Positions 79 through 13,808 of a stretch of DNA of 13,808 nucleotides are shown piece by piece. Where the stretch lies: contig CAMWQY010000035.1 in NCBI GenBank assembly GCA_947176355.1, positions 1 through 13,808 on the forward strand, given 5' to 3'. Positions within the stretch are counted from its first letter, which is position 1, and each line of letters begins with the position of its first letter. Below the pieces are notes generated by a model. That model was not told the DNA's origin. It ran no database searches and saw only the letters and a list, made by a program, of their open reading frames with translations. This DNA comes from an uncultured Porphyromonadaceae bacterium (GTDB lineage Bacteria; Bacteroidota; Bacteroidia; Bacteroidales; Muribaculaceae). The position numbers were made by a program, and so were the translations under genes.

Positions 79-127
79 GAGTATTAAGTATTAAGTATTA
101 AGTATTAAGTATTGAGTATTAAGTATA
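79..127. repeat. Tandem heptamer array, unit AAGTATT (7 copies)
   Basis: Seven contiguous 7-nt units fill this stretch: GAGTATT, four AAGTATT, GAGTATT and AAGTATA. A diverged eighth unit (TGAATAT) precedes them at 72-78. The array begins right after the stop of the left-edge frame and ends 14 nt before the probable ATG of the TPM-domain gene. Copy-number change would alter the spacing of any upstream signal to that gene, and a TTG inside the array (112) is in frame with it. Similar heptamer arrays occur at three other gene boundaries in the window. Confidence 0.9.
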
Positions 128-141
128 AAAGAGAATTATTA

Positions 142-1461
142 ATGATAAATATAAAACCTAAGTGGAGCAGAAACTCATTCGGAATTTGCTTACTACTAAT
201 ACTAAGTCTCTTAAATTATATTCCGGCGTTTGGACGGGATTATGAGCCGGAGGAGATAGTCAATCCTAATTTGGCTAACAGATATGAGTATGTGGCTGAT
301 CCGGAGGGACTGATGAGCGCTTCTGCTAAAAGCCAAGTCAACGCACGGCTTCAACAGCTTCGAGAAACCACTTCAGCTGAAGTGGCTGTGGCTGTAGTGC
401 CTTCGATCGGCGACTATGACATCGCTGATTTTTCGGAAAAAGTCTTTACGAAATGGGGACTCGGCAAAAAAGACAATGACAATGGAGTGCTTTTGCTAAT
501 ATCGCCTGACAGCCGACAGGTGAGGATTCAGACAGGATATGGGGTGGAGGGCGTGTTGCCGGACATCACTTGCAGTCATATTATCCGCGAGACCGTAGTA
601 CCCAACATGAGGAATGATTGCCTTGATTGCGCCGTAGATGAAGCCACCTCAATGATTTCCAAGATTATGTCTGATCCGGAATATGCCGAGGAATTGCGTT
701 CGGAGCTTTCTGACAATTATTCCGGTATGGATGTAGCCCCCATAAGCAAAGAGACATGGATGGGATTCTTAGGAGCCGTAGCTGCAATTTTATGGGTGTT
801 GGCTGCCGGAAGCTATATCTCACATCGGATCAAGACACGAAAGATGAAATCCGCCTCTGAAAAGGCTTTTGACTGGAGATCAAGCCTCACTCTGCTTGCA
901 TTTCTTTCGATCGGCACTCTCCTTACTGCTCTACCTTTCTATTTGCTTGCTCTATATCATTACCGTAAAGCCCGATACGGGACTCGCAAATGTGATGTAT
1001 GCGGAGGGAAGATGCATCTTCTGAAAGGTAACGAGGCATTGGGATCATTGACTCCAAGCCAGCAATTTGAAGAGAAGATAGGATCGGTGCATTATGATGT
1101 ACACAAGTGTGACAAGTGCGGAAATACAGAAGTAAATGCTTTCATTTCCAACAATTCTCCATATACACAATGCCCTCATTGCGGCACCCGAGCTTACCAC
1201 TTCGTAGGAAACAGGACTATGCGCCAGCCTACCTACCATTCAGATGGAGAAGGAGTGTCGCAATATCGGTGCGAATATTGCGGAAAGCAAGACGACAAGT
1301 GGCATAAGATTCCAAAGAAAGACATGGCAGCTGCAATGGCAACCGCAGCAGCTCTTGGAGCAGCCACACGCCGACGTGGTGGCGGCGGATTCGGTGGCGG
1401 ATTCGGCGGTGGATTCGGTGGTGGACGCACCGGTGGCGGTGGAGCTTCCGGAGGCTGGTAA
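142..1461 (+). CDS. TPM-domain membrane protein with zinc-ribbon motifs and Gly-rich tail
   Basis: The ATG at 142 gives 439 residues. An in-frame TTG at 112 lies inside the heptamer array and would only put a charged extension before the signal peptide, so I reject it. Residues 10-32 are a hydrophobic signal segment. Residues about 48-178 form a TPM domain (YgcG/TPM_phosphatase family), seen in the EVAVAVVPSIG strand, the NDNGVLLLI segment and the GYGVEGVLPD loop. Two membrane segments follow (about 207-226 and 248-272). Then come CxxC pairs at 284/287, 323/326, 344/347 and 377/380, which suggest two zinc ribbons on the far side of the membrane, and a low-complexity tail rich in FGGG units ending SGGW. 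The Gly-rich tail is typical of YgcG-like proteins. The family role is poorly defined (envelope or photosystem-repair-like phosphatase activity in plants), so I assign no reaction. The family is confident, the function is not. Confidence 0.85.
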   Translation: MINIKPKWSRNSFGICLLLILSLLNYIPAFGRDYEPEEIVNPNLANRYEYVADPEGLMSASAKSQVNARLQQLRETTSAEVAVAVVPSIGDYDIADFSEKVFTKWGLGKKDNDNGVLLLISPDSRQVRIQTGYGVEGVLPDITCSHIIRETVVPNMRNDCLDCAVDEATSMISKIMSDPEYAEELRSELSDNYSGMDVAPISKETWMGFLGAVAAILWVLAAGSYISHRIKTRKMKSASEKAFDWRSSLTLLAFLSIGTLLTALPFYLLALYHYRKARYGTRKCDVCGGKMHLLKGNEALGSLTPSQQFEEKIGSVHYDVHKCDKCGNTEVNAFISNNSPYTQCPHCGTRAYHFVGNRTMRQPTYHSDGEGVSQYRCEYCGKQDDKWHKIPKKDMAAAMATAAALGAATRRRGGGGFGGGFGGGFGGGRTGGGGASGGW

Positions 1462-1502
1462 TGTCTACTTTGCCATCAAATTCTCATGCCGGAGTTTCGG
1501 AT

Positions 1503-2990
1503 TCATTCTTTGCGAAACCGCATTGAGCTATTCTGATAAGGAAACTTGATAGTCAAGGAAGACGCGAGAGCATCAAACTCACCTTGAACGTCATTATTCA
1601 TCAAAGCCCCTTCTGCATCAATCCACTCTACATTATACACATTTCCAAACGCTGTAGGCATTAGCCGTGCTTTCTTCATTCCTGGCTGCCACATAGCGGC
1701 ATTGACCTTTGCTCCACCTAAATAAAAGACGTCAAATGCTCCGGACTCTTCATCAGGCAAGATTGCTATGCGATACATACCTCCGGACTTGGCGTATGCC
1801 TCGTCAAACTCAAAGTCGAGGAGCGAATAAATGCCGGACAGATCTGTGCGGCTGACCTTCAACGTATCTAATGATAAAAAAATATCCGTCTCAGAGGAGC
1901 CGGACAATTCATCAGCTGACATATCGAAGTGTCGATCGGTAACCGATATTCCTCCCGGACGCAGGGAAAGGATGTCGGGGGCTGCTGTTGGAATTAGTTC
2001 TGAATTGAAACTTAGCTGATGTTTATATTCCCTGTTGCCGGCAAAAAGAGTCCATAGAGTACCTGCGCGTATTATTCTCCATGCATTCTTACCTCGATAT
2101 GCATCAATTCCATCTTTCACAACAGCTGAAGCCAATACCTTGCCATTATCTTCAGATACTTTAATTCGGAGGGCATCTACACTCGAATCACCAAATGGAT
2201 CAGATTCTGACGCAGGGGTGACATTTATCTGCAATTCTTTTCCTCCTTTACAAGGGAAGATGGCTTTCCAGCCTTTCATTGAAGTGTCTGCCACTCGAAA
2301 AGATGCTGACATTGAGCCTTCCATCCGGCTAATTGGCAATGTCCGGGCTGAAAGCATTGATGTGGCTGAGGAGAATATACCTACCGAAGCAAAGATAAGT
2401 ATTATGATACCAATGGCTATATTTATCCCTTTCATGGTGCGCTGATTGAAATGCCCACGAAGTTTATCGACAAAATGGGTTACGAGCCACCACCATCCCA
2501 AGGCTCCTGCTATAATACCTATAAAACCGAGGATGTAATGATAGAATTTAATACCTTCTATGACAAAATTGAACTGAGCAAACAGACCAATGATCAAGAA
2601 AAGAATCAATGGATTGGAGAAAGTTAGCGCGAAGCCCTTCAGGATGTCGCCTTCCCGGGATGGAGCGCCATGATCAGCGTCAACAGCTACCGAGTCGTCG
2701 GGTTTCTTGCGTATAAGCCAGATGCCAAAGAATATCAGGACAATGGATCCAAGCAACTGTATAGGATCACGGTGATTGCTTATAAAGTCTTCTATAAAAG
2801 AGAGACCAAAACCTGTCAGCAGGCAATATATGAGATCGGAAATGGCTGCACCGACACCGGTATAGAATCCGGACAAGCGCCCTTTGTCGAGTGTACGCTG
2901 TATGCAATAGATGCCGACCGGACCCATCGGGGCTGAGACCACCACGCCTATCACGAGACCGCGTAATATCATCAACATTAGTTCTTCCAT
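1503..2990 (-). CDS. LysE-family transporter with extra C-terminal domain
   Basis: A 495-residue protein. Residues 1-208 are a LysE/RhtB-type amino-acid exporter module, with hydrophobic segments at about 5-30, 44-62, 78-94, 118-136, 150-172 and 189-207, and a characteristic N-terminal APMGPVG motif (20-26) and SNPLILF segment (125-131). Residues about 209-495 are a soluble extension with beta-strand-like stretches, no Cys-rich site and no recognised family. Typical LysE proteins are about 200-220 residues, so the extension more than doubles the length. After the sixth hydrophobic segment the tail could lie on either face of the membrane. The ATG at 2990 starts 18 nt after the stop of the lipoprotein gene, so the two are probably cotranscribed from the pyrE promoter. 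The exported substrate is unknown. The gene converges with the TPM-domain gene, with only 41 nt between stops and no strong terminator there. Confidence 0.8.
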   Translation of the reverse strand: MEELMLMILRGLVIGVVVSAPMGPVGIYCIQRTLDKGRLSGFYTGVGAAISDLIYCLLTGFGLSFIEDFISNHRDPIQLLGSIVLIFFGIWLIRKKPDDSVAVDADHGAPSREGDILKGFALTFSNPLILFLIIGLFAQFNFVIEGIKFYHYILGFIGIIAGALGWWWLVTHFVDKLRGHFNQRTMKGINIAIGIIILIFASVGIFSSATSMLSARTLPISRMEGSMSASFRVADTSMKGWKAIFPCKGGKELQINVTPASESDPFGDSSVDALRIKVSEDNGKVLASAVVKDGIDAYRGKNAWRIIRAGTLWTLFAGNREYKHQLSFNSELIPTAAPDILSLRPGGISVTDRHFDMSADELSGSSETDIFLSLDTLKVSRTDLSGIYSLLDFEFDEAYAKSGGMYRIAILPDEESGAFDVFYLGGAKVNAAMWQPGMKKARLMPTAFGNVYNVEWIDAEGALMNNDVQGEFDALASSLTIKFPYQNSSMRFRKE

Positions 2991-4027: not shown

Positions 4028-4678
4028 TTAAAACGGATCCGGGAGATTCGGCACCCAAGACCCAGGATTCTTGCGCCATTCACGCAGCGTCTCAGCCTCT
4101 TCATTATTGATGAAGTGGATCTTTTCCGCTACTTCAAGCATTGTGGTATATGTGCATAGAGCCACTGCATTCAGATTTGCCTCACGGAAGCGTTTCAAGG
4201 CTATCGGGAACTCATAATTGAAGAGCGCTGCCATACCAATCACCTCGCAACCTGCATTATTGACGGCTTCAACTGCACGAAGACTATTACCACCTGTGGA
4301 GATCAAGTCTTCAATCACCACTACCTTCCAACCGGGCTTAAGATTACCTTCAATTGTATTCTCAAGGCCATGGTCTTTAGGGGTATCTCTTACGTATGCA
4401 AACGGCAATCCAATGGCGTCGGCAGCCAAGAGTCCAAATGCGATGGCTCCATTCGCCACAGATGCTATAGCATCAACGTCGGGGAAATTTTCCATTATGA
4501 GACGCGCCATCTCGATCTTTATGAAGTTGCGCACATCGGGATACGACAATGCTTTGCGATTGTCGTTATAAATCGGAGAGTTCCAGCCGGAGCTCCAAAC
4601 GAAAGGAATTGAAGGCTGAAGCTTTATTGCACTGATTTGCAGAAGTTTTTCTGCAAGCATTTTGTCAGGAGTATTCAT
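4028..4678 (-). CDS. pyrE: Orotate phosphoribosyltransferase
   Basis: A 216-residue protein of full family length. It catalyses transfer of the phosphoribosyl group from PRPP to orotate, giving orotidine 5'-monophosphate in de novo UMP synthesis in the cytosol. The PRPP-binding motif VVVIEDLISTGGNS is at residues 119-132. The catalytic loop YVRDTPKDHGLENTIEG at 95-111 carries the RxxxKxHG pattern (Arg97, Lys101, His103). The N-terminal FVWSSGWNSPIYND segment (26-39) matches the orotate-side region. The ATG at 4678 is followed by a good frame, and a promoter lies about 60 nt upstream. It heads a probable operon with the SRPBCC, lipoprotein and LysE-family genes. Confidence 0.96.
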   Translation of the reverse strand: MNTPDKMLAEKLLQISAIKLQPSIPFVWSSGWNSPIYNDNRKALSYPDVRNFIKIEMARLIMENFPDVDAIASVANGAIAFGLLAADAIGLPFAYVRDTPKDHGLENTIEGNLKPGWKVVVIEDLISTGGNSLRAVEAVNNAGCEVIGMAALFNYEFPIALKRFREANLNAVALCTYTTMLEVAEKIHFINNEEAETLREWRKNPGSWVPNLPDPF

Positions 4679-8524: not shown

Positions 8525-8528
8525 ACGG

Positions 8529-8544
8529 AGTGGTCCCACTTGGG
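8529..8544 (-). other. Block resembling a tRNA 3' end (possible attachment-site half)
   Basis: The minus strand reads CCCAAGTGGGACCACT just before the terminator. It has the layout of a tRNA 3' end: T-stem strand CCAAG, seven-base acceptor strand TGGGACC, then the discriminator A. From memory it resembles the end of an elongator tRNA-Met of Bacteroidota. No matching acceptor 5' strand or anticodon arm lies nearby, so it is not a complete tRNA. A tRNA 3' remnant followed by a terminator is what an integrative element leaves at its distal junction. The same bases also form a local hairpin, so the resemblance may be chance. Confidence 0.35.
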
Positions 8545-8791
8545 AAACTCCACTTTTATTATATCCTAAAAATCAATTCTTTATCAGAATGTCTTTCAGA
8601 ACCTCCAACATTTGCTCCTACGGCGCATTGCATCGCTTTTCATCGCTCTGCTCCGCCGAAGCCACCGGAATCATCTTACTCGTTGCTCGCAAGTTCTCTC
8701 ACTTGTCATTTACAAATATAACGAATAATTCTCTATTTAAGTATGTATTGCTAGAAATTATTGTTCTCAAAACTCAATTGCCGTCTATGCT

Positions 8792-11700
8792 TCAGGGATT
8801 GATGAAGGCACAAACTGCATCATATAGGTCTTTATCAAGCTGGTAATCATCTCGATAAATAATGTTGAATCTGATTTCTGTTTTAAACCATCTATCATTG
8901 ACGGCATTAAGATATGAATTTAGGGCAATCAGTTCATTAATGAACCATTCGTGTTTCTTCACGATCCATTTACAGAGTATTGGACAAATAGTCTCTTTGC
9001 TTGATTGTACAGGATTTCCAAACATAGCTAACATTAATCCCTCACAATCTGAATATTCAGGTGGAAGGGTTACTATCTTTGTATCTAAGTTACTTCTTAA
9101 TCTACATACGTCGCAACCTTTTTTTGTGGATTCTAGAAATTTAACATTAACAAATAGATTGAAGTTCAATCGTTCTATAATTTTCCTATTCTCAATTTGC
9201 TCGTCGGTTTTGTCGTCTATTTCAAAAGTTGGAGATATCTGAATCTCGTCCGTTATGAGATGCGAAATCCAATGGAATTGGGATAACGGATTCATATGGC
9301 TTACATTCTGTCTTAAGAGATTATAGTTGATTCTATCATTAGCAACATCCATAAGATCTGCTAATCTTATAAGAATCATAGAATATTTCTCGCTGATTAG
9401 CGAATCTTTCGCATCAGAAGATCTCCCATACACTTCATCAGCATCATATCCATGACTTTCGGAAATCCTTGCTACATGAGTTAGTAATAATGGTGTGAGA
9501 TGTTTGAGAACAGAAGTATGCCATTCTCTGATTTTTTTCGCGCTTTCTTTAGGATGAGTTTTGCGAATGTTATTAGAAAAATAATTATAAATTGCTTCAA
9601 ACTGAGAAACCATGAATTGTCCTACTTTCTTGAATTTTGCTTCTGTAGACATAGTTTCAGACATGCTCACATCTGTTGAACAACTACTAAATAGGTTATG
9701 AGCATTTACAATAAACTCTGATATTATAGCTAAGCTATCGTGATCGCCGTTACAAAAACTATTAATATTGGGATGAATAACCATACTAACATCATGGAGA
9801 TAGCATGCCAGAAATAGTATATAGTAATCGGCTTGCTTAATGTTAAGGTAATCAATTGCCTTTATTAGGCGCACAACAGCCTTAATTAAGGTTACAGCAT
9901 GTTCTTCATTGTGTAGGGTATATGAGTTCATGAATTTAGATCCATTATACCATAAACCCTTAACCACTCTATGAGTTAAAATGATATTGTCTATCCATTC
10001 AGGATCCTTGACTTTTGATATAAACACATGAATAACTTCAAGAAGCCCCATATCTATGGACATCTTGTTATCTAGATTGTTTGCATCTATATCTTGTAGG
10101 GCTCTTATAAATTCATCTAAGCAGAAGTTCTTATTGCGTAACCTTGATAATATTCTTAATTCTGTATAGTGAAGGCCACGAGATGTAGCTTTAGTAAAAG
10201 TATGTGCATTACTAGGTTCAATATCATTTTGAACTGAATAATAGGCATTCAATATTATTCTCACATACTCTTCTGAATTCTTGAATACGAAACTTGTGTA
10301 AGAGGGTAGAAATTGTTCGTTTTTATCAGTTATACTTTCAGTATTAATAGAGTTTCTCTCATTGCGCAGATTTTCTACAAATTTTTCAAAATTTTTCTTT
10401 TGTCGAATTGTCGAAAAAGAGCGTACTGGAGATATGAACTCTTTTACTCTTTGAGAGATCGAAGAGTATGCGTTGCATCCACATTTTTTTAGTTCATAGG
10501 ATGCATCAAAATCTTTTCCGAAGAAAAGATAATCAGGATTTCCACAAAATCCATCGACCAAATTCCTTTCGAAGCAAACCATGTAATCTTTTAGTCGTTC
10601 AGCATCCGTTAATCTCAATAAGGACAAAAACATTCGAGCTTCCGTTTGGAAGATTTCCTCGTCATATTTTTCAAACCAAGCTTCCTTTACATTATTCAGA
10701 CATTCTGAAAATTTACATTTACCCTGAAAACAGGAGATATTAAATCTTTGTATAAATGCCTCTACATCTGATTTTGAGATTTCATCAGATAAGCGTCGCT
10801 CTAAAAGACGTAATCTATACAAATAGAATCTATTATATCGCTTAATTAATTTCAGTCGTGATTCATAATTAGTATCAATAGTTGAATCTTGATTTTCTGT
10901 TTTGCTCTCTGAAATTTTGGACTTTAGACGCAAAATTTCTGCATCTATAAGTTCGCTAACTTTTTCAAGTTTATCTTTGGAGTATATATCCTCAATTTCA
11001 TCAACATTGCTGTATATAGAGGCAGCCATCGAGGCATTTCTCATCAAAGGCTCCAGACCCGCTATGCTCATTCCTGCTTCCTCAATTCTACAAAACTCAC
11101 TCTTTCCATTTGGATGGAACTTAATGGTGGTGTCTAATCCTTCTTGAAATGTCACATACTCTTCTCCCAGAATGGATTTTATGATTTGTCTAATTCCATG
11201 ATAGTTATTATCATCTCCAATGGTCTTTATTGCAGAATTTAAATCCTCTATGGTTCTGTTAAAACGGTCTAAATCATAGTCTTGGCCAATGTAGATGACG
11301 GAGTCATCCACGTAGAAGAATGAATCGCAGTCTTTAAAATCTTCATGATCAAGTATCTTCTTCCGAATCTCAATCATACAGAGATTTCCGAAGAAATACG
11401 ACTGGGGCAAACCTTGGGCTATACCGCGAGAATAGTGTTCAGAGATTGTCTTAGATATTTCTTTCCCATAATATTGGCTTTCCCATCCTTCTAAATTCTT
11501 TGCATTGATTTTAAAAATTAGAAGTTTGGTCAAAACCATCTTAAGAGTTTTCTTATCTTCTTCTGTTAATACAAACTGAAGCTTTTGAGTTATATATTCG
11601 AATATAAAATATGGTGAGATGGACGGAAAGAAATTTTTTAAATCAAAAGTTATTTCAGTTTTATACTTATGATCCTTTCGGTATTGTTTACAATGTTCAA

Positions 11701-12226
11701 TGATATGGTCTGTGTACTGTTTATACTGATTAATCCATGGCTTAAACAGAATTTCCACACTATCGCTTGGAATATTTCCATAGAAATCATGAGGAATCAT
11801 TTTTGTAAGTTCAGACCGTTTACGTTTTCCACTGCTATCATCAAACATAAGTGGAAGTAACATACAAACCATGCATATCTGATCCACCAGTTTTGCCGTG
11901 TGTATGGGACGATATTTAATTTGATCATCTTGACAGGTTTTTCCTTTTTCAAATTTTTTAATTTTAAAATAAACCTTCACATCGAATAATTCCTTAGGAT
12001 CGGAAAGAATCCTATCTAATTTTTCTCGGCACTCATCAATTACATTTTGGATTTTATAAAAGTTAAACTTATCATGAAGAATGGTATAGAGTTCAAGGTC
12101 TTTCCTATTTAAAAGACCTTTTTCAAACACATATGACTCCATACAATAAATTGCATTATATATATTCTCCTCAGAAAGGATGATGTCTCTAAGACCTTTC
12201 TTTATAGTATTCTCACTTTTCTTCAT
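8792..12226 (-). CDS. Reverse transcriptase fused to an HD-type phosphohydrolase-like domain
   Basis: A 1144-residue protein. The reverse transcriptase core spans about 85-400. An early KYRPIHTAKLVDQICM segment (104-119) is motif-1-like. Motif A is ITFDLKNFFPSIS (192-204, Asp195). Motif B is GIAQGLPQSYFFGNL (268-282). Motif C is FFYVDDSVIY (303-312, Asp307 and Asp308). All three catalytic aspartates are present. A charged helical linker follows (about 405-485), then a region of about 280 residues with no recognised family. An HD-type domain spans about 765-970: LHNEEHAVTLI (His772, His776), CYLHDVSMV (His811-Asp812), EWHTSVLKHL (His903), LTHVARISE (His917) and IRLADLMDVANDR (Asp957, Asp960). 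That is the metal-binding pattern of HD enzymes. It is far too long for a retron RT and lacks maturase or endonuclease motifs of group II intron proteins. I place it nearest the Abi/unknown-group (DRT-like) RTs. Its start overlaps the upstream gene by 14 nt, implying translational coupling. Activity is inferred, not shown. Confidence 0.85.
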   Translation of the reverse strand: MKKSENTIKKGLRDIILSEENIYNAIYCMESYVFEKGLLNRKDLELYTILHDKFNFYKIQNVIDECREKLDRILSDPKELFDVKVYFKIKKFEKGKTCQDDQIKYRPIHTAKLVDQICMVCMLLPLMFDDSSGKRKRSELTKMIPHDFYGNIPSDSVEILFKPWINQYKQYTDHIIEHCKQYRKDHKYKTEITFDLKNFFPSISPYFIFEYITQKLQFVLTEEDKKTLKMVLTKLLIFKINAKNLEGWESQYYGKEISKTISEHYSRGIAQGLPQSYFFGNLCMIEIRKKILDHEDFKDCDSFFYVDDSVIYIGQDYDLDRFNRTIEDLNSAIKTIGDDNNYHGIRQIIKSILGEEYVTFQEGLDTTIKFHPNGKSEFCRIEEAGMSIAGLEPLMRNASMAASIYSNVDEIEDIYSKDKLEKVSELIDAEILRLKSKISESKTENQDSTIDTNYESRLKLIKRYNRFYLYRLRLLERRLSDEISKSDVEAFIQRFNISCFQGKCKFSECLNNVKEAWFEKYDEEIFQTEARMFLSLLRLTDAERLKDYMVCFERNLVDGFCGNPDYLFFGKDFDASYELKKCGCNAYSSISQRVKEFISPVRSFSTIRQKKNFEKFVENLRNERNSINTESITDKNEQFLPSYTSFVFKNSEEYVRIILNAYYSVQNDIEPSNAHTFTKATSRGLHYTELRILSRLRNKNFCLDEFIRALQDIDANNLDNKMSIDMGLLEVIHVFISKVKDPEWIDNIILTHRVVKGLWYNGSKFMNSYTLHNEEHAVTLIKAVVRLIKAIDYLNIKQADYYILFLACYLHDVSMVIHPNINSFCNGDHDSLAIISEFIVNAHNLFSSCSTDVSMSETMSTEAKFKKVGQFMVSQFEAIYNYFSNNIRKTHPKESAKKIREWHTSVLKHLTPLLLTHVARISESHGYDADEVYGRSSDAKDSLISEKYSMILIRLADLMDVANDRINYNLLRQNVSHMNPLSQFHWISHLITDEIQISPTFEIDDKTDEQIENRKIIERLNFNLFVNVKFLESTKKGCDVCRLRSNLDTKIVTLPPEYSDCEGLMLAMFGNPVQSSKETICPILCKWIVKKHEWFINELIALNSYLNAVNDRWFKTEIRFNIIYRDDYQLDKDLYDAVCAFINP

Positions 12227-12923
12227 TATCGTCCTCTTTTGAATCGTTGTTATTGTGAATAACGGTCAACAATGTTTGAATTTTATCAGCAACAGACTTA
12301 ACATCCTCTTTTGTGGATCTGTCTAATGAAATGATTGTTTTTGATCCACAAATGATTTTTAATCTATATTGTCCTGCTTTGCAAGATAACATATTATTTA
12401 ATAAATCAAGCTTACATTGTGCTGTTATTGAGTTCTGAGTTGGGGAATAGACAACCTGTAGAAATTCATCAATTTGAAAGAACGTCAAATCGCTCAATTG
12501 AATTGACGTAATCATTGTATTTATATCAGAACAAACAAAGTTAATGTATTTATTGAATCTCTTTAAAAAGTCGGGAAGATTCCTGAGTTTAGAGAGCAGG
12601 TAGCTCCACTCAAAATTAAAATGTTCTGTCTGTGATAGAAAGAACGTGTATAATATAAGATTGTCTTCCTTATCTAAAGGAGCCTGGGAAAGTTGATCTT
12701 CAAGTTGATTTTTAGGAAGGTGTCCAATTCCATTAAAAAGATAGTTTATTAATTGCCGTTTGGGTTGGAATAATCTACTTCCTATAATATCTTCTTGTAA
12801 ATTATCAATGTACTCAATAAGCATTTCACCCAAACTTTTTATTGTTAGCTCAGGTTTCTTTCTGCTTTCAGAAAATTTATACATCCGTCTTTCTCTATTT
12901 CGTAGATTTATAGTATTCTCCAT
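12213..12923 (-). CDS. Unrecognised protein between primase and reverse transcriptase genes
   Basis: A 236-residue, mostly helical, charged protein of no family I recognise. The longest start (12923) overlaps the primase gene by 29 nt. An alternative ATG at 12884, preceded by purine-rich GAGAAAG, leaves a 10-nt gap and gives 223 residues, and it is equally plausible. There is no signal peptide or membrane segment. Residues about 120-158 contain a hydrophobic helix-rich stretch. The C-terminal part (about 186-222) reads as two short strands (YRLKIICG, KTIISLD) then a helix, faintly like the C-terminal dimerisation unit of ParB-like proteins, which I would not rely on. An acidic tail (NDSKEDDNEEK) ends it, and its last codons overlap the RT start. 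The strict packing suggests it acts with its neighbours, perhaps as an adaptor. Confidence 0.75.
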   Translation of the reverse strand: MENTINLRNRERRMYKFSESRKKPELTIKSLGEMLIEYIDNLQEDIIGSRLFQPKRQLINYLFNGIGHLPKNQLEDQLSQAPLDKEDNLILYTFFLSQTEHFNFEWSYLLSKLRNLPDFLKRFNKYINFVCSDINTMITSIQLSDLTFFQIDEFLQVVYSPTQNSITAQCKLDLLNNMLSCKAGQYRLKIICGSKTIISLDRSTKEDVKSVADKIQTLLTVIHNNNDSKEDDNEEK

Positions 12924-13808
12924 AATCTTTGAAGTTTTCAGGGTATTCCAATCGGTGAATTTTACCCCCCATTCTTATAACGTGATATCTTAAAGTTTCA
13001 TATGCTCTTTCTCCAGCTAAATCGTGATCTACACACATAATTAGATTGTATCTAATTAGTTTACAAACATCTTTTAAAGGAAGATTAGAGGCACTTGGAA
13101 TTGCAATAGCGTTATGACCTGTTGATAACAGAGCTAAGCAATCAGATACTCCCTCTGATATATATAGGTTTTCATTATCACTTAAATTATTCAAAATTTG
13201 CAGGTTATAAATATTAGGTTTAAATCCTGAGATAAATTGAAATCTTGGCGCATCAGTAATGTTTCCAATGTATCGAGTCTGAATACCTATTAATTCTCCC
13301 ATTGAGTCGTAATAGGGGAAGACTATGCAAGGTGTAAATATCCTTAGATAATAATTATTGTTACTAATCTTGATATACCCAGCTTCGGCTAACTCGATTG
13401 GTGTAAACATGGAGCAAAGAGCTTTAACTAGTTTTCCCGAATCAGAGATGGATTTTATATTGTTGGAACGGATTACGTCTAATGATAATTTTCGCTCATC
13501 AAAAAGAAAATGTTGAGCCTCAGTGGATAGGCTTGCATTTGAGATTATCCACGATCCTATTTCTTGATTAAATTTTGATTCAGTCTGATTGTCTATAACA
13601 TATTTTCGAAGCGGCATCGTAATTCTCTTAGGTTTGGGTGTATTAGGAATATATATTCCATATTGGTTGCATAGCCACATACATGCAGTTACAAAATCAG
13701 TCTTTAAGTAGTGCATAACAAGATTGATAGTATTTCCTCCGATATCACATACAAAGCATTTCCACATATGACCTTTTCGATGAAACTTTAGGCTGGGTTT
13801 CTTGTCAT
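12895..13808 (-). CDS. Compact DnaG-type primase, CHC2 zinc finger plus TOPRIM (5' truncated)
   Basis: The frame is open to the right edge, so the internal ATG at 13767 is not the true start. The 13 codons before it read DKKPSLKFHRKGH and continue into WKCFVC, the second half of a CHC2 zinc finger. The first Cys-x-x-His pair is off the window. After a linker, IFTPCIVFPYYDSMGELIGIQTRYIG matches the DnaG catalytic-core strand region. LYISEGVSDCLALL (Glu of the TOPRIM motif) and IMCVDHDLAGERAYETL (DxD motif) complete a TOPRIM fold. PENFKDYGEYY near the end is the usual primase basic/acidic turn. The protein stops straight after TOPRIM, with no helicase-binding C-terminal domain as in cellular DnaG. 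Such compact primases make RNA primers on plasmids, phages and conjugative elements. Here it is the first visible gene of the RT operon. Confidence 0.88.
   Translation of the reverse strand, partial: DKKPSLKFHRKGHMWKCFVCDIGGNTINLVMHYLKTDFVTACMWLCNQYGIYIPNTPKPKRITMPLRKYVIDNQTESKFNQEIGSWIISNASLSTEAQHFLFDERKLSLDVIRSNNIKSISDSGKLVKALCSMFTPIELAEAGYIKISNNNYYLRIFTPCIVFPYYDSMGELIGIQTRYIGNITDAPRFQFISGFKPNIYNLQILNNLSDNENLYISEGVSDCLALLSTGHNAIAIPSASNLPLKDVCKLIRYNLIMCVDHDLAGERAYETLRYHVIRMGGKIHRLEYPENFKDYGEYYKSTK

Follow-up and report, generated by a model that had tools for sequence, protein, structure and literature searches.

A UG24 reverse transcriptase-HD protein encoded with a DnaG-type primase and a third protein, from a gut Bacteroidales bacterium: a probable defense module

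Introduction

What does a protein that joins a reverse transcriptase (RT) to an HD domain do, and with which genes does it work? This question is raised by a 13,808-nt stretch of DNA from a gut Bacteroidales bacterium (GenBank contig CAMWQY010000035.1, in our numbering C35; this whole contig is called the window below), in which a single gene encodes an RT-HD protein of 1,144 residues. An initial annotation, made from the sequence alone, linked this protein with the Abi and unknown-group (DRT) RTs, which are known anti-phage defenses. The UG/Abi classes reportedly go back to Mestre et al. (2022). Those defense RTs for which the product is known form their DNA in strikingly different ways (PMC13213688).

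Here, the RT-HD protein is assigned to the UG24 family, and its gene is described as the third of three overlapping genes, following those for a DnaG-type primase and for a protein without a recognized family (ORF2). The primase, ORF2, and the cassette setting of the module go beyond the initial annotation, and our literature search found no prior description of the constant third protein, of the co-divergence of the three genes, or of the cassette setting. As judged from the genes with which it is associated, the trio probably has a defense role.

The RT-HD protein is a member of the UG24 family

The open reading frame (ORF) is intact, and the catalytic residues named in the initial annotation lie at the residue numbers that it gave (Table 1). 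The protein matches the PADLOC model RT_UG24 (PDLC03762) from end to end (E value of 0; 1129.5 bits; residues 11 to 1143 against model positions 3 to 1035 of 1036), and the next-best PADLOC models are RT_UG6 (33.2 bits) and Drt1a (27.8 bits). On the basis of this match, its identity as a UG24 RT is secure, which agrees with the UG/Abi origin initially proposed. The same end-to-end match led us to reject a reading as a retron or diversity-generating retroelement (DGR) RT; the only NCBIfam match, to the RT of retron St85, was far below the cut-off (23.5 versus 235 bits). The name UG24 occurs once in the accessible part of PMC8934634.

A profile search also upheld the HD region, with the Pfam family HD-CE (PF24391) matched at residues 768 to 999 (E value of 2.1e-23; 83.8 bits versus a cut-off of 27). 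The RVT_1 match at residues 172 to 328 (E value of 3.4e-6; 27.3 bits) was slightly below its cut-off of 29.6. Among four relatives scanned in the same way, HD-CE was over the cut-off in all four; RVT_1 was over it in L043 (33.8 bits) and L044 (35.6 bits), below it in L045 (27.6 bits), and absent from the Pfam matches of L047. HD-CE was the sole Pfam HD family to match the window protein, and no dGTPase-type HD family was among the matches. As the initial annotation had stated, the stretch between the RT and HD domains has no recognized family in Pfam; it is nearly all helical in an AlphaFold2 model that is confident overall (pLDDT, 81.8; pTM, 0.80). Toward the C terminus, two Cys pairs (the first conserved in 39 of 40 alignment rows and the second in 40 of 40) may form a zinc site.

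The fusion of the two domains is not a chance event, since 725 database proteins resemble the RT-HD protein at an E value of ≤1e-3 and nearly all of those listed are full length and carry HD-CE: among the 120 of these 725 matches that were listed, 116 cover at least 97% of the query, 119 have HD-CE, and 105 have RVT_1 (precomputed Pfam annotations). Conservation was assessed in an alignment of 48 rows, comprising the window protein, 39 listed proteins, and 8 loci (47 distinct sequences, P0119 being the same as L046). Asp195, Asp307, and Asp308 of the RT are invariant in all 48 rows, and His772, His776, His811, Asp812, and Asp957 are invariant in all 47 rows that reach the HD part (L050 ends earlier). 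The lowest identity to the window protein is 37% among full-length rows and 32% for L050. In L050 itself (positions 126-2480, minus strand), the UG24 frame stops after 784 amino acids (aa) close to the contig end and represents either a broken gene or an assembly end.

In an RT tree of 32 rows, in which the labeled RTs were few (UG5, UG19, UG26, and group II-type, alongside unlabeled ones), nine UG24 proteins formed one clade (100/99), positioned outside another that groups 11 RTs (99/98). Pfam found GIIM, the maturase domain of group II introns, in seven of the eight scanned members of this second clade and in none of the scanned UG24 proteins. The tree tool warned that UG5 and UG24 are joined by long branches. 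A group II intron RT was thus rejected from this tree position, the missing GIIM, and the lack of any Rfam intron in seven sources.

A DnaG-type primase and a third protein accompany the RT

The primase gene of the window is cut by the contig end but is complete (342 aa) in L002, whose contig is near-identical to the window. Its window product matches the PADLOC model RTasDnaG-like (PDLC03800) with an E value of 1.6e-80, and Pfam places the CHC2 zinc ribbon and Toprim over the cut-off and DNAG_N below it. A profile of the family matches the solved DNA primase 2au3 (E value of 1.2e-22, over positions 13 to 333 of 347). In eight aligned primases, the zinc ligands C35, H38, C56, and C59 and the Toprim residues E257, D299, and D301 are invariant. 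These eight proteins are 342 to 360 aa long and end shortly after Toprim. Housekeeping DnaG carries a C-terminal helicase-binding domain; the short length after Toprim therefore points to a stand-alone primase core without that domain.

We surveyed 12 loci, of which L003 and L049 are one contig cut within RT-HD, leaving 11 distinct loci, 10 of them with upstream sequence. The order primase, ORF of 224 to 294 aa, RT-HD was found in 10 of these 10 (the window and L002 being near copies); in L042, the open part of the primase gene is limited to a 248-aa frame. The PADLOC model name, read together with these loci, suggests that the DnaG-like partner belongs to UG24. On one point, the initial annotation has to be corrected: it could name no RT system in which an HD domain is arranged in this way, but UG24 with a DnaG-like partner was already included in PADLOC 2.0.0 (2023).

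ORF2 proteins with BLAST similarity to that of the window (E value of ≤1e-3) are encoded in 6 of the 10 loci, window included. Searches of Pfam, PADLOC, NCBIfam, and PHROG gave no match to ORF2 at an E value of ≤1, and its model (pLDDT, 75.6) is helical toward the N terminus and alpha/beta toward the C terminus. The three genes co-diverge: pairwise identities of the primase and ORF2 correlate with those of RT-HD (Mantel r of 0.87 and 0.93, respectively; 0 of 5,000 permutations as high) across eight loci, one of which has a partial RT-HD, and with much of the result carried by the tight groups L044-L046 and L047, L048, and L050.

Table 1. Features of the RT-HD locus (window coordinates)
Feature	Position	Strand	Description
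Noncoding element 3' of RT-HD	8530..8726	-	197 bp; also behind other defense genes of the genus
RT-HD protein, UG24 family	8792..12226	-	1144 aa; ATG start; internal stops, 0
Conserved Cys pairs CxxC...CxxxC	8972..9115	-	Residues 1038, 1041, 1081, 1085
HD-CE domain	9230..9925	-	Residues 768-999; His772, His776, His811-Asp812, Asp957
Mostly helical middle region	10007..10999	-	Residues ~410-740; no Pfam family; AlphaFold2 model
RT core	11027..11974	-	Residues ~85-400; motif A Asp195, QGLPQ 271-275, YVDD 305-308
ORF2	12213..12923	-	236 aa; overlaps primase by 29 bp and RT-HD by 14 bp
DnaG-type primase gene	12895..13806	-	5' end lost at contig end; 303 of 342 aa; complete in L002:8304-9332

Distribution and base composition

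The genome from which the window comes (74% complete) has no match other than the RT-HD protein. UG24 proteins were detected in 8 of 397 family genomes (E value of ≤1e-30; 2 of the 8 partial), in 6 of 111 genus genomes (2 partial), and in 2 of 393 order genomes, where the count is of full-length matches. In a phylum sample of 395 genomes, the one with UG24 is the genome studied here. These samples overlap, and this genome is counted in each of them. Two IMG/VR contigs carry UG24, and no match was found among INPHARED phages or PLSDB plasmids. The G+C content is 31 to 34% in the module and 45 to 50% across the window's first 7 kb. This AT-rich, patchy pattern fits a transferred accessory system.

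A shared 3' element and the cassette setting

L002 and the window have 5.3 kb in common (98.4% DNA identity); with L049, the common stretch is 2.7 kb (97.6% DNA identity; this length is limited by the L049 contig end). Both similarities break off at one position, window 8528-8530, which is 262 bp past the RT-HD stop, and the neighbors differ beyond it. The final 197 bp before this breakpoint constitute a noncoding element, for which a limited literature search found no published description. It is present in 31 of 111 genus genomes and lies behind RT-HD in only 3 of those 31 (G000, G456, and G727); G546 holds both on different contigs. Twenty aligned copies have a mean column identity of 85% and end in CCCAAGTGGGACCAC.

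The window, L002, L049, and 19 fetched regions together gave 25 copies of the element. For 18 of the 25, a piece that matches the L002 gene for Schlafen AlbA_2/HATPase lies 0 to 5.5 kb upstream on the same strand, and in 5 of those 18 the nearest matching piece is shorter than 130 residues. Of the seven copies without such a match, five (in the window, L049, L118, L119, and L126) have little contig remaining upstream, and for the other two (in L124 and L129) none was found in 8 kb. Ten selected neighbor proteins were scanned. They include Avs4 (1162 bits), HamB of Hachiman (906 bits, in L119), a GmrSD-type enzyme, a caspase-domain protein, and a STAND-like NTPase (a weak match), and the neighbor in L130 is a homolog of the AlbA_2 gene. 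Because the defense genes before the element change, RT-HD resembles one of several cargoes in an exchangeable defense locus. This cassette setting supports, by association, the defense role suggested in the initial annotation.

The element could be a recombination site, a conserved 3' RNA, or mere shared homology, and it could serve in searches for new defense genes in the genus. Some copies occur in pairs on the same strand, 3 to 6 kb apart (L116:1141-1335 and 4239-4439; L120:6918-7114 and 12508-12626; L127:7658-7839 and 10878-11058), as if cassettes had been stacked; a further copy is at L112:6003-6196. In L002, the gene order is helicase, AlbA_2, primase, ORF2, RT-HD, and element. The helicase gene at the head of this run (L002:3-6788) encodes a 2261-aa protein with a superfamily 1-type helicase at its C terminus and a partial match to PADLOC MkoA (116.8 bits). 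The AlbA_2 gene and the helicase were considered as core parts of the system and rejected, as tblastn found neither in the fetched regions of eight distant UG24 loci.

Search for a system RNA

No constant space is available for an adjoining RNA gene: the upstream gap is 30 bp in L002, the downstream gap is 2 bp in L044, and in L047 and L048 the next ORF overlaps RT-HD. No flank sequence is common to the distant UG24 loci, and Rfam gave no matches in the seven sources. The 262 nt past RT-HD fold somewhat better than shuffled sequences (z score of -2.08; 7 of 200 as good), and covariation in the element is slight (2 of 26 pairs). Despite the fold score, the element was rejected as a cis noncoding RNA of this system, because it occurs in far more genus genomes than those where it follows RT-HD, is absent from the parts fetched of eight more distant UG24 loci, and shows little covariation. 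The lack of a consistent RNA gene space favors untemplated or primase-assisted synthesis, short of proof.

The genes following RT-HD vary. The overlapping gene at L047:13366-14085 matches AbiGi (E values of 1.7e-11 in Pfam and 2.9e-18 in PADLOC), and the start of the overlapping gene at L048:14342-15067 is closely similar to it, the two loci belonging to the same UG24 sub-clade. The AbiGi-like gene in L047 adds to the evidence for a defense setting. At L044:5656-6951, a 431-aa protein starting 2 bp past RT-HD has no Pfam or PADLOC family.

Proposed function and rival explanations

The sequences show conserved catalytic residues in the RT, the HD domain, and the DnaG-type primase, as well as the co-occurrence of the three genes. 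In class 3 DRT1, the RT and effector sites are both required, synthesis is protein primed and template free, and the system causes abortive infection (PMC13275509). By analogy with DRT1, in which the effector is fused to the RT, we tentatively favor a three-gene abortive anti-phage system built around the UG24 RT, in which the DNA made by the RT would control the fused HD domain as effector. DNA synthesis by the RT would need no RNA template encoded in cis, and priming would come either from a residue of the RT itself, as is reported for class 3 DRT1 and DRT5, or from the partner primase. Ser376 (48 of 48 rows) and Ser399 (44 of 48) both follow YVDD, as Ser402 of DRT1 follows its DD motif, and are candidate priming residues purely as a guess. 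The RT-bound DNA would keep the HD domain in a controlled state until phage replication proteins or nucleotide changes upset it; the HD phosphohydrolase would then cut an essential nucleotide or nucleic acid, and the infected cell would halt growth before phage maturation. The primase, consisting of a zinc ribbon and a Toprim polymerase core without the C-terminal tail, may provide a primer or second strand or may sense phage single-stranded DNA, and ORF2 may be an adaptor linking the two enzymes. The model given in the initial annotation, with an RT that makes a cDNA or unfolds on infection and an HD part that degrades nucleotides or nucleic acid, is plausible.

Several observations weigh against this proposal. 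The literature search found no phage or biochemical study of any UG24 protein, and the defense role therefore rests on association. We know of no substrate of the HD-CE family, and a sequence search returned no significant solved relative of the HD part. The similarity of ORF2 was undetectable by BLAST in 4 of the 10 loci (L043, L047, L048, and L050), and its model has no recognizable fold match. Four of the 10 scanned cassette neighbors (L112, L114, L121, and L122) match no PADLOC model, and the eight more distant UG24 loci lack the element in the regions that were fetched. A trans-encoded or intragenic RNA may exist. All that the tree shows for UG24 is a separate, long-branched clade; it gives no placement among the UG classes, class 3 included. 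The priming serine of DRT1 is not conserved in other class 3 DRTs (PMC13275509).

How the primase would enter such a system can be specified further. In a scheme that we consider doubtful, it would make primers or short RNA templates, the RT would make DNA without an encoded RNA, ORF2 would bridge the two, and the product would gate the HD effector. To our knowledge, a primase-coupled RT gating a fused HD phosphohydrolase has not been demonstrated experimentally. It is rather unlikely that the DNA product is itself antiviral. In that case, phage replication would be starved or poisoned by single- or double-stranded DNA that the RT and primase make together, and the HD domain would be a brake, not the effector, trimming or limiting the product or the nucleotide supply. 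Two polymerases in one operon resemble DRT3 (two RTs) and DRT7 (RT and primase-polymerase), in both of which two polymerase activities cooperate (PMC13174585, PMC13213688), and DRT4 and DRT9 are reported to act via their DNA (PMC13213688). The near-invariant HD residues fused to the RT instead recall DRT1, whose fused domain is the effector.

The HD domain could also be a dNTPase or NTPase that drains the nucleotide pool while the RT-primase pair chiefly senses the pool or the replication state. We regard this as improbable. HD proteins include dNTP triphosphohydrolases, but the HD family matched here is HD-CE, of which no substrate is known to us, and the dGTPase-type families are missing from the matches. 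Sensing of the dNTP pool through DNA synthesis has been discussed for DRT1 and DRT9 (PMC13275509). Least probable of all is a selfish or domesticated RT serving in repair or in its own mobility: UG24 lies outside the group II clade, no Rfam intron accompanies it in seven sources, phage (INPHARED) and plasmid (PLSDB) records lack it, and known defense genes are among the cassette neighbors in relatives.

Comparison with known systems

The closest counterpart is the PADLOC pair of RT_UG24 and RTasDnaG-like, which is listed as a DRT. The likeness consists in the full-length RT match and the same DnaG-like neighbor, and no difference from that system was seen; the conserved middle ORF2 of the window matches no PADLOC model at an E value of ≤1. 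Class 3 UG/Abi RTs are defined as an RT plus a nitrilase or phosphohydrolase (PMC13275509), a definition repeated in PMC12489045. An RT and such a hydrolase were found here in one protein, with a weak RVT_1 match and a strong HD-CE match, and we infer that HD-CE is the phosphohydrolase meant in PMC13275509. Our literature search found no worked-out mechanism for the phosphohydrolase branch of this class.

Like class 3 DRT1 (RT-nitrilase), the UG24 RT is one large protein with an RT, a helical part, and a C-terminal hydrolase. Here, HD replaces the nitrilase of DRT1, and a DnaG-type primase and a third protein are present in every locus with upstream sequence, whereas DRT1 is reported to be protective without a partner (PMC13275509). 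The same HD family occurs in a different architecture in another Bacteroidales genome, where it is fused to an Hsp90-type ATPase (L075:1-2436, minus strand; 812 aa, open at the locus end). This protein shares HD-CE and its H-x3-H...HD...D pattern with the UG24 proteins and has the higher HD-CE score (163.3 bits versus 84 to 92 in five scanned UG24 proteins), but it has no RT, and its HD domain is N-terminal to the HATPase.

DRT7 (UG10) likewise couples an RT to a primase (PMC13213688); there, a primase-polymerase is fused to the RT, whereas here the DnaG/Toprim primase has a separate gene and the RT carries an HD domain. In one operon, the locus described here combines an RT fused to an HD hydrolase with a true primase of the DnaG type, and this pairing makes it testable whether an immune RT uses a primase for priming or templating and whether its product switches the fused enzyme.

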